From: a virus
Direction: 5' to 3' (one strand)
DNA: 31,290 nt
IMG/VR virus record: IMGVR_UViG_3300027741_000180
Coordinates: 1-31,290 of that record
Positions within the stretch are counted from its first letter, which is position 1. Every line of letters begins with the position of its first letter. Made by a program: the position numbers and the translations under genes. The notes beneath the pieces were generated by a model that did not search any database, had not been told where the DNA came from, and saw only the letters and a program-made list of their open reading frames with translations. This document shows positions 4,821-31,290 of this stretch, piece by piece.

Positions 4821-4850
4821 ATTCTAGCACATACGGTTAGTGCTCTTCAA
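4821..4850 (-). promoter_or_regulatory. Candidate extended -10 promoter
   Basis: Minus strand: TTGAAG (4850-4845), 18 bases, then TAGAAT (4826-4821), immediately preceded by TGC (extended -10). TAGAAT matches the sigma70-type consensus at five of six positions. The -35 overlaps the last codons of WhiB. Predicted start of transcription is near 4814, 20 bases before the zinc-ribbon ATG at 4794. It would allow the recombination genes to the left to be expressed independently. Confidence 0.5.
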
Positions 4851-5145
4851 CCCATTCCTCTAAGGTCATTCCGTTACGCTCAGCTTTTCTTGCCAAAGCG
4901 TTTCTTTCTCTCCTACTTAGCCCGCCCCAGATACCGTACTCTTCATTTTTATTGTGAGCATACAGTAAACACTCTAGTCGCACTGAACAAGGTGGTCTAC
5001 CGTCCTTGCCTAAGCAGACTGCTTTGGACTGTGTTGCTATGTCAGTATACAAGTCTTTGTCTCTGGGTGGAAACCACATCTCGGTATCCATACCCATACA
5101 CTTAGCATCTGCACGCCAGTTTTCTACATCTAGGGGGTCTCGCAC
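4837..5145 (-). CDS. WhiB-family iron-sulfur transcription factor
   Basis: A 102-aa protein with the WhiB hallmarks: C16 in a WRADAKC context, the acidic/aromatic MWFPP segment, then C44, C53 and C59. The invariant G-I-W-G-G turn follows, then a basic LSRRERNALARKAER tail for DNA contact. WhiB proteins carry a 4Fe-4S cluster, occur in actinobacteria and their phages, and modulate host sigma factor. The spacing is unusual: C44 and C53 are eight residues apart where most family members have two. The start is a GTG at 5145 with GGAG five bases before it; it overlaps the nuclease gene by 16 bases. This is the strongest single indication of an actinobacterial host. Confidence 0.93.
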   Translation of the reverse strand: MRDPLDVENWRADAKCMGMDTEMWFPPRDKDLYTDIATQSKAVCLGKDGRPPCSVRLECLLYAHNKNEEYGIWGGLSRRERNALARKAERNGMTLEEWVEEH

Positions 5146-5462
5146 TTACACTCCTGGAGATTTTGCCGCATCTCCAGAAAATCATCTTCAGTTAACGCCA
5201 CATAGTTCTCACCGTTAAGGTGAAACCCAAGGACAGGCAACCTGCCGTCAAGGATTGCTTCCCTGACTATTTTTTCCAGAACATCCGACTTAACGGTTAT
5301 CTGTTTTTTGCCTGTCCACTTATGTTCTATAAGCAGGTCACTTGAACGGACATCACCCTTACGGCTCCAAAAGGCTCCGCTAGCAGCGACGGTTCCCCCG
5401 CCGACTGCCTTGGCTAGTCTGTTCTCATGCTTCTTTGACTGACGCTGACCCTCAGACCGCAT
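5130..5462 (-). CDS. PD-(D/E)XK nuclease, Holliday-junction-resolvase-like (Hjc type)
   Basis: A 110-aa protein. The motif pattern is E14 in the first helix (KKHENRLAK), then D37/D42 in GDVRSSDLLIE, E46-H-K48, and a following helix with K58-S-D-x-L-E-K. It ends in a beta strand (PVLGFHLNGENYVAL). This is the compact restriction-endonuclease fold of archaeal Hjc and phage junction resolvases. The short length matches that group, although a different nicking nuclease is possible. ATG 5462 is chosen for its GAGG six bases upstream; it overlaps the RecA stop by 11 bases, coupling it to the recombinase. Confidence 0.8.
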   Translation of the reverse strand: MRSEGQRQSKKHENRLAKAVGGGTVAASGAFWSRKGDVRSSDLLIEHKWTGKKQITVKSDVLEKIVREAILDGRLPVLGFHLNGENYVALTEDDFLEMRQNLQECKCETP

Positions 5463-6507
5463 CAGAGACCTCAGCCACATACTTAGAGCCAGCCCGTACA
5501 ACCGTACGAACATCCTTCTCTAGTGCGTCTTTGAGGTCAACCTCTTCTCTAATAGATTGTACCACTGCATTTGCCCCCTGCCATTTACGGTCACCATAAC
5601 TGTAGTAGGCGCCTGCTCTAGTGATGATTTTGTTAAGAATACCCAACGCCACAATCTCTTTAGCAAAGTCAAAGTCTCCCGCGTAACACTCGCCGTTATC
5701 AAAGTAGAAATCTACATAGGCTACCTGTGATGGTGGGGCTGACTTGTTCTTTAAGGTACGAATCTTGATAGTCTGACCTACCTTGTGCTTCTCTTGACCA
5801 GTGCCAGTCTCAAGCCACTCGTCTCGCTTGACCTCAATGCGGGTAAAGAAAGCGTAGTTCTTAGCCTCTCCACCTGGAGTTGTACGAGGGTCACCGTACA
5901 TAACACCAATCTTCATACGGTACTGGTTGATAATCAAACCTATGAAAGGACGCTCAGATTCTGTAAGGGACCGTCGTGAAGCCTTGCCAACCTTGCGAAA
6001 AAACTTACCTGTGAGCAGAGCACCACGACCAACAGTAGCCTCGTCCATGTTCTTTTCATCTTCGGTCATAGGTACAAGGGCTGGGAGTGAGTCAATAACA
6101 ACGCAGTCAACTGCTTTAGTCTCAACAAGGTTGATGACGGCTTCGTATGCTTCTTCCATAACGTTAGTTGCCACTACGAATACGCGGGACAAATCTACAC
6201 CACACATCTCTGCATAAGACGGCACCCAAGACTCAGCCGCCACCCATACAGTCATAAACTCTGGGTCACGCTGTTGGTTAGCCGCTACGGTCTTAAGTGC
6301 AATGGCAGTCTTGCCATTAGACGCTTCACCTACAATCTCATGCCACTGGTTAACAGGAAACCCCCCGCCCAAAATGACATCAAGAGCAAGAGACCCTGTG
6401 GTCATCCTACCCATTACTTCATCTTTGATGTCTGCGCCAAGAACAATAGTGTCTGAGCCAAACTTTTTATTCAATAGTGTGATTGCTTTTAATAGTTCTG
6501 CGTCCAT
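5452..6507 (-). CDS. RecA-like recombinase
   Basis: A 351-aa RecA/UvsX-type ATPase. Visible features are the TTGSLALD core entry, Walker A G60-E-A-S-N-G-K66-T67, a Walker B strand VDCVVIDSLPAL, and the INQYRMKIG...PGGEA region corresponding to DNA-binding loop L2 and its flank. The P-loop reads EASNGKT rather than the common bacterial PESSGKT. The protein lacks the long C-terminal acidic tail of bacterial RecA but keeps an extra C-terminal basic domain. It would coat single-stranded DNA and drive strand exchange for recombination-dependent replication and repair. Neighbours are two nucleases, a polymerase and an ssDNA-binding protein, making a coherent recombination set. Confidence 0.95.
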   Translation of the reverse strand: MDAELLKAITLLNKKFGSDTIVLGADIKDEVMGRMTTGSLALDVILGGGFPVNQWHEIVGEASNGKTAIALKTVAANQQRDPEFMTVWVAAESWVPSYAEMCGVDLSRVFVVATNVMEEAYEAVINLVETKAVDCVVIDSLPALVPMTEDEKNMDEATVGRGALLTGKFFRKVGKASRRSLTESERPFIGLIINQYRMKIGVMYGDPRTTPGGEAKNYAFFTRIEVKRDEWLETGTGQEKHKVGQTIKIRTLKNKSAPPSQVAYVDFYFDNGECYAGDFDFAKEIVALGILNKIITRAGAYYSYGDRKWQGANAVVQSIREEVDLKDALEKDVRTVVRAGSKYVAEVSDAV

Positions 6508-11205: not shown

Positions 11206-11302
11206 TACTAAAGTACCCCCTGCTGGATTCGAACCAGCGCCACGCAGGGTAGAAACCTGCTGCTCTATCCCCTGAGCTAAGGGGGCAGGTACTACTTTAG
11301 TA
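11206..11302. repeat. 10-bp inverted repeat flanking the tRNA gene
   Basis: TACTAAAGTA (11206-11215) and TACTTTAGTA (11293-11302) are exact complements on either side of the tRNA. The left copy includes the last acceptor base and discriminator; the right copy covers the stop codon of the transglycosylase gene. In a primary transcript the two arms could form an extended stem that competes with or extends the acceptor stem, perhaps guiding processing. Confidence 0.6.
11214..11286 (-). tRNA. tRNA-Arg (anticodon TCT)
   Basis: A 73-base cloverleaf. The acceptor GCCCCCT pairs with AGGGGGT with one G-U pair at the end. The D stem is GCTC/GAGC, the anticodon stem GCAGG/CCTGC with loop TTTCTAC (anticodon TCT at 11253-11251), and the T stem GCTGG/CCAGC with loop TTCGAAT. 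The discriminator is A, and CCA is not encoded. It reads AGA (and possibly AGG) arginine codons, which are uncommon in many actinobacteria, so it may support translation of this relatively AT-rich phage. Confidence 0.95.
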
Positions 11303-11789: not shown

Positions 11790-13367
11790 CTAAACCGAAG
11801 TGTTGGAAATAAAGGCTCTAAGTGTACCTAAATTAAGTTCCACCCCGCCTTTATCATTGATTCCCTCACCGTCAATAACTGCGCTAGCCACAGAGTTTTT
11901 CTGTTGTAACGCGGAATGCTGGCGTACTTCAATAGAACCTGCAACTAGTATGTCTTGAACTACAATGGTTTCCCATGTTGACGATGCTCGTTTGATTCTT
12001 CCGTTTCTTTGGACCGCAAGTCCCGACGACCAAGGTAAATCATAATTAACCAAAAGATTAGCGGCAGGAAGGTCCACACCATAACCACCAGCGTCACTGC
12101 TGATAAGGATACGGACGTTAGGGTCGGTATTGAAAGCAATTTTATTCTCCTCTTTAGTCTTAGCATCTAAGTTGCCCGTGTATATTTTAGAACGGTCAAC
12201 CCCAAGAGTGTTTTGAAGTATGTCCACCATGTCTACGTATGTAGCAAAAATAACGCACTTGTTATCTGGACGTAAGTCTAGAAAATCGTTAACGTATTCA
12301 GTTAACGCATTAAGTTTAGGGGACGCGGTAATCCCATCTAGCAACCCATCGTCTAATAAACCGTAGGCGTATTGAGAACCCTCACCTGTCAATCCTTTAA
12401 ACTTTTCTGCGCTAATGCGTAGCAGTTCAGGGTGCGAGCACAACATCTTAAGGCTCTGTACCTTAGACATAATAGCCCCGCGTACTTCGTCTGCCCTACT
12501 ACCTGATTGGCTTTGGTATCCGTAGTGAGCCAAGATGTTAAAGGAACCGCCAAACAACGCTTGAGCATTGTCTAAGTCTAAAACCAAATCATCTACAATC
12601 TTTTTGTATAGCTTGGCAGACTTACGGTCAAGGTAAACAAGTAAGGGGTCTTTGTGAATAGAGTCAGGCAGGTACGGCGCTACATCAGGGTCCTTCTGAG
12701 ACTTGCGTACAGACGCATCTTTCATCTTGGTATGTAGTGTAGGGAGATTACGGTAACGGTCTACTCCACCCCAAGTGTTACGCACAATAAAAGTTTGGTC
12801 AAAGATGTCAAACCGACCCAGCACTTTGCTGTCTACAAACTGCATGATTGAGTACAACTCTTCTGGCTTACCATTTTCAATTGGGGTGCCAGTAAGGGCA
12901 AACTTAATTGGAGCGTCTGCAAGTTTCTTGACCTGCTTAGAGCGCTTAGACTTAAAAGACTTAATAGCGGTTGCTTCATCTAGTACAACAAAACCGCGTG
13001 GGAGTTTCTTTACATGCTCCCAGTCATTAACTACCTGCTCGTAGTTCATAATGATGTAGTCAACGCCAGACATTTCCCAGTCCATTGCTTCTGCGTACTG
13101 GGCTTGACGTTGCTTAGGGGTGCCATCAATTACTAAAGACCGTGATGTGCCATCGGTAAACTTTTCAATCTGGTTAGCCCATTGGTACTTCAAACTGGAC
13201 AGGCAAATGATAAGCCCTGGTGTCAAGTCTTGTTTCATTGACTCCAGTGCCGCGATTGTTAATACCGTCTTGCCTAGACCGAGGTCGTATGCAACAAGCA
13301 GTTTCTTTTGCTCGCACATACGACCCACGGCTTCGACCTGGTACGGAAGCAGCGTACCTGTAAACAT
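11790..13367 (-). CDS. SNF2-family DNA helicase/translocase
   Basis: A 525-aa superfamily 2 ATPase with motif I DLGLGKT (residues 28-34), motif II LDEATAIK, motif III LTGTPIEN, motif V SSDAGGYGVDLP and motif VI QRNGRIKR. The LLPYQVEAV start is the SNF2 Q-motif region. Such phage proteins translocate on double-stranded DNA and are thought to remodel forks or remove proteins. The start overlaps the M23 stop as TAATG, so it is co-translated with that gene. The length is that of a minimal SNF2 core without extra domains. Confidence 0.93.
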   Translation of the reverse strand: MFTGTLLPYQVEAVGRMCEQKKLLVAYDLGLGKTVLTIAALESMKQDLTPGLIICLSSLKYQWANQIEKFTDGTSRSLVIDGTPKQRQAQYAEAMDWEMSGVDYIIMNYEQVVNDWEHVKKLPRGFVVLDEATAIKSFKSKRSKQVKKLADAPIKFALTGTPIENGKPEELYSIMQFVDSKVLGRFDIFDQTFIVRNTWGGVDRYRNLPTLHTKMKDASVRKSQKDPDVAPYLPDSIHKDPLLVYLDRKSAKLYKKIVDDLVLDLDNAQALFGGSFNILAHYGYQSQSGSRADEVRGAIMSKVQSLKMLCSHPELLRISAEKFKGLTGEGSQYAYGLLDDGLLDGITASPKLNALTEYVNDFLDLRPDNKCVIFATYVDMVDILQNTLGVDRSKIYTGNLDAKTKEENKIAFNTDPNVRILISSDAGGYGVDLPAANLLVNYDLPWSSGLAVQRNGRIKRASSTWETIVVQDILVAGSIEVRQHSALQQKNSVASAVIDGEGINDKGGVELNLGTLRAFISNTSV

Positions 13368-13981
13368 TATTTCTTCTTCGCTGGTGCTTTCTTAACAGGC
13401 TTTGCTGGAGCCTTCTTCACTGGCTTTTTAGCAGGAGCCTTGGCAGGCTTCTTTGCTGGAGCCTTCTTTACAGGAGGCTTAACAGCACTTGGTTTAGCAG
13501 GCGCTGTTGGGTTAGCAGGCAGTGGATTAGACGCTAAAGGTGGCTGGTAGTCAATTACAAACTGCGGGTCTACATCGTTGGTCTTGGACCAGAAGCGAGA
13601 AGTCTGTACTTCAAAATGTAGGTGAGGACCTGAGACATTACCCTCAGCGCCTGACTTACCAATAAGTTGTCCAGCCTTAACCTTGTCACCAATCTTTACG
13701 TATGACTTAGAGCCATGAGCAAGAATTGCGTAGTAGGTACGAGCAGGAAGAAGTGGTGAACGCTTTGCAGTAAACTGCAGAATAATTTCAAAGCGACCAA
13801 AGGCTGTGCCCCAACCGCCCTGTACACCTACACCAACGACAGTTGCATCGATAGGCGCGTACAAATCTGTGCCAATTGGACAAGCGTAGTCAACTCCTTG
13901 GTGATGTCCAGAAGACCACATGGGTCCACGCTTGCCATAGGGCGTAGTGATTCTATACTTACTTGGTACTGGTGCTACCAT
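13367..13981 (-). CDS. M23 family endopeptidase with Lys/Ala/Pro-rich tail
   Basis: A 204-aa protein. Residues 1-155 are a LytM-type zinc endopeptidase domain: HHQGVDYAC supplies the first His and Asp ligands, and HLHFE near residue 119 the remaining His residues; an intermediate TPYGKRG and GHHQG loop are also typical. From ~160 onward it is a histone-H1-like tail of repeated KAPAKK/PVKKAPAK units. There is no signal peptide, so it would need a holin or export, or be a virion protein. The tail may bind teichoic acids, wall polymers or DNA. An AGGAG precedes the ATG, and the gene sits inside the replication operon, an uncommon place for a lysin. Confidence 0.9.
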   Translation of the reverse strand: MVAPVPSKYRITTPYGKRGPMWSSGHHQGVDYACPIGTDLYAPIDATVVGVGVQGGWGTAFGRFEIILQFTAKRSPLLPARTYYAILAHGSKSYVKIGDKVKAGQLIGKSGAEGNVSGPHLHFEVQTSRFWSKTNDVDPQFVIDYQPPLASNPLPANPTAPAKPSAVKPPVKKAPAKKPAKAPAKKPVKKAPAKPVKKAPAKKK

Positions 13982-28263: not shown

Positions 28264-29856
28264 CTATGAAAGCGCATCTACTAAGGCTGCTTTGTAAGCA
28301 GTTGGGTCTGAGCCTGGTGGAACTGAAATATTGATAGTAATGTCTCCATTAAATTGTTTTGGCAGGGTAGACGGAGTTGAGCCTGGCGCTCGGTTAGGTT
28401 CCATTTCTTTTGGTAGCCCTACTTCGTTTGCCTGATTCATACCCATTACTTGGTCAAGTGCCCCAGAACCCATAGTCCCCGCGCCTAACGCGCCTACAGC
28501 GGCGCCACCAAGAGCTAGTTTTCCAAGTGAAAGCCCGCTAAGAGCACCGCTTTTTATAATACCTTGAAGACCTTTTCCAGCCGCGCCAGCTAAATCTTTT
28601 AAAATTACCGCGCCAGCACCACCGCGAATACCACCAAAGGTAGTTAGCCCCGTAGATATTTCTTGTGCGCCTTTCATCATGTCGCTAAATGGACCGCTAT
28701 TTAAACCGCCTGTACCTAATATTCTGTACAAACCTTGAATAAAGTTATCTGTCCCTACCATGGCTTTATTGGTTGATTCAGTGTAAGACTGAACAAGTTG
28801 TAATTCTGCGGTGTTACGCATAGATAAAGACTCTAGTGGAGTTGTAGTCCCACCAAATTCATTTAGCCTTGCTTTTGTACCGCTTGTTCGTAAGGTTTCT
28901 TTAGACTTTACCCTCTGAATAAGACCAGAAACAATAGTTTGACGAGTGTTTTCGTCATCGCCAACGTATTGTCTAATTAAACTATCTAAAGCATTTCCAG
29001 GCATCATTGACACGGCAATATCTTGTGGCGTTGGATTAGGATTGTTCTTTGTAATAAGCGTGTAGAGTTGCTCAATAATTTGAGGCAGGTCATTCATAGT
29101 AGTACCGTTATTGCCGCGAACTTGAACACCAAGCATACGAAGCATGTTAACATTTTGAGGCTGGTTAAGGTTAGCCATTACGCCCATACCACCAGTCAAC
29201 CCAATGCCTGGAGATAAGTTAGACGCTAAGGCTGCGCCACCCATAACGCCAGAGAACCCTGCACCAGAGTTAAAGTTTTTTAGACCTGTAGTTAATCCAG
29301 AAGTAGCGCCAGTGTTAATTGCTTGAAGAACATCATCAGGACCTACAGCAGTACCCGTACGCATTGCCTCATTCATAATGCTGTATTGGTAGTATGGCAG
29401 GTAGGGGTTTGCACCACCAAAACCTCGCCCAGTATTTTTATTAGACAAAGGGTTTTTATCGTTTACTACACCTAAATTATTAGAGTAAAACCGCATACGT
29501 TCAGCAACCGCAGACGCATTAACAGTTTCTTGAGTGGTGGGTAATAACGCTACAGTGTCTTGAATTCCAGTCCCTAGACTTTTTAAGATACTTAGCATGC
29601 CTTCTCCACCACCGCCGCTAAATGCGGACTTAGCGGAACTTGCAGCATAATTAGCAACAGCGCCTGTTCTTGGACCTACTCCAAAACCCGATTGACTGGG
29701 CGCTCCAGGAGCCCCAGCATTTACTTGTTGCGAATAGTTTGAGCCCGTAACTTTAGTAGACATGTTGCTTGCTGCATCGCCAAGTTTGTCCATCTTAACT
29801 GTCAACGAGTCAATTAAGTCACCCATTTTAGACAAACTGTCATTCAACATTCCCAT
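28264..29856 (-). CDS. Tape-measure-like tail protein
   Basis: A 530-aa Gly/Ala/Ser-rich protein. The N-terminal coiled-coil-like start (DSLSKMGDLIDSLTVKMDKLG) is followed by long hydrophobic Gly-rich stretches (ALASNLSPGIGLTGGMGVM, GLSLGKLALGGAAVGALGAG), typical of tape measure proteins. It ends with a predicted beta strand (DITINISVPPGSDPTAYK). It is shorter than many tape measures, so the tail may be short, or the measuring role may be shared. The position after the tail chaperone matches that of the tape measure gene. AAGGAG lies five bases before the ATG. Confidence 0.75.
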   Translation of the reverse strand: MGMLNDSLSKMGDLIDSLTVKMDKLGDAASNMSTKVTGSNYSQQVNAGAPGAPSQSGFGVGPRTGAVANYAASSAKSAFSGGGGEGMLSILKSLGTGIQDTVALLPTTQETVNASAVAERMRFYSNNLGVVNDKNPLSNKNTGRGFGGANPYLPYYQYSIMNEAMRTGTAVGPDDVLQAINTGATSGLTTGLKNFNSGAGFSGVMGGAALASNLSPGIGLTGGMGVMANLNQPQNVNMLRMLGVQVRGNNGTTMNDLPQIIEQLYTLITKNNPNPTPQDIAVSMMPGNALDSLIRQYVGDDENTRQTIVSGLIQRVKSKETLRTSGTKARLNEFGGTTTPLESLSMRNTAELQLVQSYTESTNKAMVGTDNFIQGLYRILGTGGLNSGPFSDMMKGAQEISTGLTTFGGIRGGAGAVILKDLAGAAGKGLQGIIKSGALSGLSLGKLALGGAAVGALGAGTMGSGALDQVMGMNQANEVGLPKEMEPNRAPGSTPSTLPKQFNGDITINISVPPGSDPTAYKAALVDALS

Positions 29857-29858
29857 GC

Positions 29859-29981
29859 CTACTCCTTAAAAAATCTAGTTGACCTAATCATCCAATTGTT
29901 TCTTTCTCTACAAGAAAGCCCCTTTATATCTTTTAAAGTCCAACCAGGAAACATTCTGGTGAGTACTTCGTAACTATCCAT
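29859..29981 (-). CDS. 40-aa second reading frame behind the tail chaperone gene
   Basis: ATG at 29981 (AAGG three bases before it) opens 40 codons ending in TAG at 29859-29861, two bases before the tape measure start. The protein has SYEVLTRMFPGWTLKDIKGL and SCRERNNWMIRSTR, which looks like a conserved helix-turn-helix end. The frame is also open leftward from 30029 and lies +1 relative to the preceding 265-aa gene, so it may be reached by a ribosomal frameshift instead of its own start. In tail operons a second frame in exactly this place usually encodes the extension of the tail assembly chaperone. Confidence 0.6.
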   Translation of the reverse strand: MDSYEVLTRMFPGWTLKDIKGLSCRERNNWMIRSTRFFKE

Positions 29982-30003
29982 CAACCTTATGTAGTCGTCG
30001 TCA

Positions 30004-30801
30004 TCATAGGCGAAACAAGCTGGCGAGACCTAGCGATATCTTGATATTGTTATCGCATGCCTCACAAGCCTTGCTCACCTCCGCAAGGCGTGGACCTGGT
30101 GCACCATCGTATAGTGCACTTGCAATTGCTTCTCTGTCTGATAACCCAAGTTGTTGAGCCGTAATCTTACCCAAGGAATGTGAGTTATTTACTGAGACAA
30201 GGCAACCCGCAAGTATTTCGGTTAACGTCTCTGCGTAAGTAGCATTAGGAATGTCCATTAGCCGTTTGTTAGTAATAAGGTTAGGTAAAACAACTTCTGC
30301 TACACCAGACTTTAGTTCAACTGTAATTAGCCTGTCATTAACTCTGTCGTCCAATGTTTTAACTGGAATATCATTTGTTAAATCAATTTCTAAACTTTGG
30401 CTTGTGTTACAGGAGTTACACACAACGTCTACATCTACAAACTGTCCGAATGTAATACTACGAATTGCTAAAAGGATAGCATCTCGGTCACCCATTAGCA
30501 TAGAGTCCAAATCTGATTTAGATAAGGTCTCGTCGGCTACTGACACTAGTCCGCGTTCAAAAATAATTTTTAACGCACTGTTTATAGAATTTGCTTTAGC
30601 GAGGGCTTCTTCGTCAAACCCGTTTAGTTCTCGTACTTCAGCGGTAGTTCCTACAGAACCATCTTTAAAGATGTACCCGCCTGGCAAGTTAACTATGTTA
30701 TTTGCTGGCGGTTCCGTAGTTACGTTAACATCTTGAGATACCGTCTGAAATGCTTCTGCAAGTTTGTTGATTTCTTGTGGGTCGTTTATTAGTTCAGTCA
30801 T
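30004..30801 (-). CDS. gp26-like baseplate/tail assembly chaperone with zinc knuckles
   Basis: A 265-aa protein resembling the T4 baseplate gp26 family. It starts with a disordered segment and LPGGYIFKDGSVGTTAEVRELNG, then FDEEALAK and the MGDRDAILLAIRSITFGQFVDVDV core. Two CxxC pairs (C128/C131 and C246/C249) probably bind one zinc ion. It should act early in hub or tail assembly. Its TGA at 30004-30006 is followed in the +1 frame by an open 40+-codon reading frame. The ATG has AAGGA seven bases upstream and a TATAAT box behind it. Confidence 0.85.
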   Translation of the reverse strand: MTELINDPQEINKLAEAFQTVSQDVNVTTEPPANNIVNLPGGYIFKDGSVGTTAEVRELNGFDEEALAKANSINSALKIIFERGLVSVADETLSKSDLDSMLMGDRDAILLAIRSITFGQFVDVDVVCNSCNTSQSLEIDLTNDIPVKTLDDRVNDRLITVELKSGVAEVVLPNLITNKRLMDIPNATYAETLTEILAGCLVSVNNSHSLGKITAQQLGLSDREAIASALYDGAPGPRLAEVSKACEACDNNIKISLGLASLFRL

Positions 30802-30832: not shown

Positions 30833-31290
30833 TTAGAATCCTTTTGGCTTTACCGAACCGCTATGTACTGAGCCGTCGTAATCAAGGAACGCTACTGATA
30901 GACCTTCATGCACAAGGGTCATTGATTCGTACATAATTCCGCCTTGGCTACCTGCGTCCAAGTCTTGGTACCTTAGGCTTGTAATCCATGCGTTATGAAT
31001 ATAAAATCCCATACGAGGTTTATTGTTCACAGTGTTGGCTTGAGGATGGTCCATAAGTTCAATGGTAACATTGCAACGGAAAGACGACTTACCCGAATCA
31101 GATACCTGTAAACCTTCTCCAGACGTAACTGCAAATAATCCTCGCATCCAAGTAAGTGCACTATCGTTTCCAAATAACGCTCCACGAGTAAACGTAATAT
31201 TTTCAAACCTAGTCTGACCTGGAATCTGATGGGCAGTGGTATTGTAGCCGCCCTCACGATAGGCAAGAGGTTCGGTAGTTATCTGTAAAC
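30833..31290 (-). CDS. Tail tube protein (gp19-like), 5' end outside window
   Basis: The frame is open from the right edge to TAA at 30833-30835, giving the last 151 residues. It shows the gp19/XkdM tube pattern: EPLAYREGGYNTTAHQIPGQ, then RFENITFTRGALFGN, LTWM, and after a middle part FYIHNAWITSLRYQDLDAGS, ending in MYESMTLVHEGLSVAF. It polymerises into the inner tube of the contractile tail. The true start, and the sheath gene expected beside it, lie beyond the window. Confidence 0.9.
   Translation of the reverse strand, partial: LQITTEPLAYREGGYNTTAHQIPGQTRFENITFTRGALFGNDSALTWMRGLFAVTSGEGLQVSDSGKSSFRCNVTIELMDHPQANTVNNKPRMGFYIHNAWITSLRYQDLDAGSQGGIMYESMTLVHEGLSVAFLDYDGSVHSGSVKPKGF

Follow-up and report, generated by a model that had tools for sequence, protein, structure and literature searches.

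Programmed frameshifting that yields two forms of a tail assembly chaperone, G and GT, is classical, and a 2016 review excepts T4 from it and mentions a +1 shift for the halovirus HSTV-2 (PMC5009743). The lambda G/GT frameshift was reported by Xu, Hendrix and Duda in 2004, as treated in that review. T4-like tail assembly chaperone genes were identified by Vladimirov, Gautam and Davidson in 2022, a work cited together with polyT −1 signals in PMC12846349; judging from that citation, the −1 and gene-duplication parts of the picture given below are at least partly known. A TTT-CGC motif lies at the tail chaperone gene of the HF1-group haloviruses (PMC7230728), and the same source cites Firth 2012 for the influenza PA-X +1 frameshift at UCC_UUU_CGU. 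A report on cluster C mycobacteriophages mentions a programmed shift in the chaperone gene (PMC5122674), and a general +1 motif in bacterial phages has so far been left undefined (PMC10885494). A literature search that missed most subscription papers turned up no account of a +1 shift for the gp26 family, so that novelty is unproven.

The window analysed here, that is, the whole stretch of 31,290 nucleotides, carries on its minus strand a tail tube gene, a PF12322 chaperone gene, a small +1 frame and a gene at the tape-measure position, in this order. The T4 gp19-like tail tube gene (30833-31290; PF06841, E 1.9e-17; phrog_4542) has its 5' end beyond the window. The chaperone gene (30801-30004) matched PF12322, the T4_baseplate or gp26/gp51 family, with 45.1 bits in the profile search against a curated cut-off of 24.5 (E 1.2e-11; phrog_150). 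As originally predicted, it has 265 codons and ends in CGC CTA TGA; the entire 3' end reads AGC TTG TTT CGC CTA TGA, with the stop at 30006-30004. The original prediction also holds for the +1 frame, which is open through this stop from 30029 to 29862, ends with TAG at 29861-29859 and encodes VSPACFAYDDDDYIRLMDSYEVLTRMFPGWTLKDIKGLSCRERNNWMIRSTRFFKE. The next gene (28264-29856, 530 aa) had no match in Pfam or PHROG and is placed at the tape-measure position by gene order only. In a relative, Listeria phage LIS04, the annotated order is tube, hub and tape measure. Elsewhere on the minus strand of the window, we detected a RecA-like protein (5452-6507), an M23 peptidase (13367-13981) and a tRNA-Arg with anticodon TCT (11213-11286), the sole RNA gene found in the window.

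We interpret the chaperone gene, with high confidence, as a tail assembly chaperone gene that yields two products in the manner of lambda G/GT, with a chaperone from the T4 gp26 family and probably by means of a +1 shift. In the proposed mechanism, most ribosomes would terminate at the UGA and release the 265-aa short form (G), and a minority would slip by +1 with Phe-tRNA on UUU (30015-30013), fully re-paired on UUC. After the slip, reading would go on in the +1 frame and complete a 313-aa fusion (GT) that ends with a small helical T-domain of 50 residues, AYDDDDYIR...FFKE (30011-29862). By analogy with lambda, the tape measure would be bound by many G and few GT molecules, with T recruiting the tail-tube subunits. 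What the locus would share with lambda G/GT is a chaperone made in a short and a frame-extended form from a gene that lies between those for the tail tube and the tape measure; it differs by a +1 shift at UUU_C in place of the −1 shift of lambda, by a chaperone of the gp26 family and by a large, zinc-finger-like protein containing CxxC. Slippage in cells, the exact codon and its efficiency, and the chaperone function are what we infer, while comparison provides the conserved overlap, frame and domain, the purifying selection on the +1 frame, the retention of UUU_C against codon bias, the gene order and the relation of T to the gp51 C-terminus of T4 and to −1-encoded domains in other phages.

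Relatives were drawn from annotated phages, IMG/VR and genome contigs, and an HMM of the +1 extension was run on all three forward frames near the stop of every chaperone gene. The best match was in frame +1 and open through the stop in all 124 loci, 91 of them distinct, whose stop could be read; the HMM was made from the sequences of 30 of the loci, hits to which are non-independent, and loci from L075 onward were excluded from it. None of the 124 had the T-domain in another frame or past a gap, which is far beyond chance. The original proposal that a +1 frameshift extends a gp26-like chaperone, which pointed to the overlap and frame offset of homologous loci as a check, is thus supported, as both are kept in every homologue. 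A gap before the second frame, which was regarded as counter-evidence, was sought among the homologues and not found, and the "separate genes" of Streptomyces phages sit within the same open +1 frame.

The T-domain was ~45 aa long in the homologous loci, with the common pattern W-[ST]-L-x-[DE]-I-[KR]-x-L-[ST]-x-R-E-R-x-x-W. These loci include the cultured Streptomyces phages BRock, GiJojo, LuckySocke and pSt2308, contigs of Streptomyces, Actinomadura, Nonomuraea and Saccharothrix, and one MAG labelled Bacillota. The product gp135 of BRock starts at a TTG 34 nt beyond the stop, within the open +1 frame. Records of Streptomyces phages give the T-domain as its own gene with a TTG or later start (L002:4836-5018, L003:3824-4021, L004:3872-4027), it is left without annotation in L005 (after 3792), and the +1 frame of pSt2308 is without any annotation. 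The window also contains a gene for a WhiB-family transcription factor (4837-5145, minus strand; PF02467, E 2.5e-16). WhiB proteins are a hallmark of Actinobacteria and their phages, and this gene, together with the actinobacterial relatives, suggests that the host of the window phage is actinobacterial.

Purifying selection on the +1 extension is indicated by dN/dS, which in two sets of relatives was 0.13 and 0.20 in the +1 frame and 1.0-2.7 in the two other frames. Such a conserved domain might be a separate small protein translated from ATG 29981 or TTG 29984 by termination-reinitiation, because this pair of codons could in principle initiate a 40-aa protein, AAGG stands at a short spacing 5' of the ATG, an ATG is kept at the same place in two relatives (L007 and L009) and annotators call separate genes of this kind in Streptomyces phages. 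However, the first ten codons past the stop, 5' of most possible starts, also gave dN/dS of 0.20 and 0.24 in the relatives, and many relatives are without a start codon in the region; ATG, GTG and TTG are all absent from the slip site to 60 nt past the stop in 18 of the 32 lineages (clustered at <60% identity), and L026 lacks them throughout the +1 frame. Independent initiation is therefore no explanation for those loci, and a separate protein is highly improbable as the nature of the T-domain. ATG 29981 had been taken as the only ATG of the frame, which is wrong; it is the first of three (the others at 29954 and 29891) and comes after the TTG, all four being candidate starts 3' of the slip site. 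The window is a metagenome contig, and an apparent frameshift could arise from a sequencing error or a decayed gene, but cultured isolates, contigs of bacteria and scores of assemblies all have the two frames in the same relation, which, together with the purifying selection, makes the chance of this negligible.

A +1 frameshift also takes place in bacterial prfB, the gene for RF2, where CUU_UGA is the slip site at the stop. On this analogy the original prediction put the shift at the codon before the stop, CTA-TGA; in such a reading slow termination would drive it. CTA-TGA exists in the window, skipping T after CTA yields RL-DDDDYIRLMDSYEV as was written (a second quotation, 'YDDDYIR...', had one D missing), and the stop is always 3 to 8 codons from UUU. 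Nevertheless, the analogy is unsupported: the window has CTA TGA and no prfB-type CUU_UGA beside its stop, CTA re-pairs poorly after a +1 shift, and all three stop codons are found among the loci. In addition, the pre-stop codon is unconserved (CTA, CTC, TTC, TTA, ATA, GAA, GAG, TCA, GTC, TGG and others) and often unable to re-pair. UUU_C was present, and the +1 frame open as far back as UUU_C, in 71 of the 91 distinct loci, the motif having been spotted by inspection and then scored on the same loci; its distance to the stop was 9, 12, 21 or 24 nt, so that it is retained even 7-8 codons 5' of the stop. Because the pre-stop codon is variable and UUU_C near-invariant, UUU_C (30015-30012 in the window) is likely to be the slip site, and slippage at CTA-TGA is highly improbable.

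Counted by lineage, UUU_C was found in 31/32 lineages at <60% identity, 25/26 at <50% and 9/10 at <40%. Phe-tRNA with the anticodon GAA decodes both UUU and UUC; since this anticodon pairs with either codon, a +1 slip at UUU_C loses no pairing. TTT is hardly used elsewhere in high-GC loci (0/45, 0/44, 0/68, 2/67 and 3/77 Phe codons), yet it is used at the slip site. The product of background frequencies over 29 lineages, which were picked for UUU_C near the stop, a property of nearly all lineages, was 10^-22.9 for TTT and 10^-17.2 for C as the next base. The codon after UUU was most commonly CGN (17/29 lineages), and the context in the window is UUU_CGC. The predicted junction is accordingly ...SLF-AYDDDDYIR... 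and not ...SLFRL-DDDDYIR..., and the predicted tryptic junction peptide is ISLGLASLFAYDDDDYIR for a slip at UUU_C and LDDDDYIR for a slip at CTA-TGA. The remaining 20 of the 91 distinct loci form one subfamily of metagenomic phages (L015-L058) with an invariant TCC CTT TTA or TCC CTT CTA (CUU_U/C) in place of UUU_C; our guess is that CUU is the slip codon there. No consistent stimulatory RNA structure was seen downstream (mean z +0.52 for 29 lineages and −0.15 for 28).

The putative slip site resembles that of influenza PA-X, in which slippage is also at UUU_C and is followed by a CGN codon, the commonest one in the phage loci; the genes are unrelated, and the phage loci take any C-initial codon and have a stop close by. 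The HF1 group and HSTV-2 share with the reading proposed for the window a +1 shift with UUU_CGC in a tail chaperone gene between the tube and tape measure genes, and we confirmed TTT-CGC at the same place in the sequence of HSTV-2. Unlike the window chaperone, however, the halovirus chaperone is without a detectable relation to the gp26 family, and for HSTV-2 none was found by sequence. The likeness to prfB lies in a +1 shift near a stop and in the CUU_U/C of the L015-L058 subfamily; the differences are that the slip codon of the phage loci is away from the stop, that their stop may be any of the three and that no Shine-Dalgarno-like tetramer stands at a constant distance 5' of the slip site in the 29 lineages.

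Both T4 gp26 and T4 gp51 match PF12322, and gp51 has ~46 C-terminal residues that are absent from gp26 and appear to correspond to the T-domain. T4 thus has two genes of this family, whereas cyanophages, Ackermannviridae and KVP40-like phages encode the T-domain in the −1 frame and the window encodes it in the +1 frame. We opened six further T4-superfamily phages and surveyed 105 loci, and the T-domain was in the −1 frame across the stop in all 105. Every one of the 58 distinct loci from cyanophages, Schizotequatrovirus and Angelvirus had U_UUU_UUC, and the Ackermannviridae loci had R_AUU_UUC or G_GUU_UUC. Most cyanophage loci have an additional ATG at +5, so independent starts are possible there; most Ackermannviridae loci have no start codon for the −1 T-domain. 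In profile comparisons, the −1 T-domain matched the C-terminus of gp51 with prob 98.1 and E 7.6e-14. Its match to the +1 T-domain had prob 83 and a score of 31.6, where 60 shuffles gave 12.6 at most, and this ties the +1 T-domain to gp51 via the −1 domains with moderate confidence. The −1 T-domain lies in a gene-free part of the annotation in Ackermannviridae and Angelvirus records (L164 after 3956, L166 4212-4377, L167 after 4199), and the record of the cyanophage L162 gives it as a tiny "gp51 base plate hub assembly catalyst".

An unrooted tree built from the chaperone domain separated the +1 group by a branch with support 100/100 and put the gp26 and gp51 of T4-type phages together (99/97) beside the single-gene −1 phages (placement 89/83). 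The modest placement and the lack of a root make it likely, though short of proven, that the T4 gp26/gp51 pair arose when an ancestral gene with a frameshift was duplicated. Pseudotevenvirus-type phages have a gp51-like gene next to a gp26-like one in tandem (L155:1501-2794, L156:1501-2795), which fits a tandem duplication. The slip codon was 17 codons after the last CxxC in both the UUU_C and the −1 loci that have CxxC (most cyanophage loci are without it), and this same spacing suggests that the same codon serves both directions. It is reasonably probable that contractile-tailed phages kept one homologous site while its slip direction changed. In this view, cyanophages and phages like KVP40 shift by −1 at U_UUU_UUC, actinobacterial phages shift by +1 at UUU_C, SP15-like Firmicute phages perhaps do so too, and in T4 the slippage has been replaced by gene duplication. 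In the SP15-like Listeria phage LIS04 (L311:2285-3013 and the next 230 nt), a similar-looking, unannotated +1 domain follows GAG TTT TTT AGT with no start in between, as seen by eye at this one locus.

AlphaFold2 models were obtained for the window fusion (pLDDT 90, pTM 0.78) and for a gp51 96% identical to that of T4 (pLDDT 91, pTM 0.86), and the two models share a C-terminal series of helix, short helix and helix. In the fusion model the T-domain had no homologous rows behind it, and its confidence was low to moderate (about 55-77); the modelled junction was RL-DDDD, from which the UUU_C junction differs by two residues. Viral-protein fold matches were T4-like baseplate hub assembly proteins. 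The best PDB match, the HK97 tail assembly chaperone 2ob9, was weak (E 0.14, prob 0.85).

Taken together, the gene very probably carries a well-conserved programmed +1 frameshift, and UUU_C takes the place of CTA-TGA as its likely slip site. This corrects the annotation of several records in which the T-domain is called a separate gene or missed. The UUU_C held against extreme codon bias would be a clean comparative case of a +1 slip site in bacterial phages. The gp26 family, the T4 member of which, the best known, has long been listed as an exception, would come under the G/GT frameshift rule with a shift of +1. Furthermore, one homologous site, served by slippage of +1 or −1 or by gene duplication, would be a natural series, in which the rules for the direction of slippage may be tested on variants only a few bases apart.
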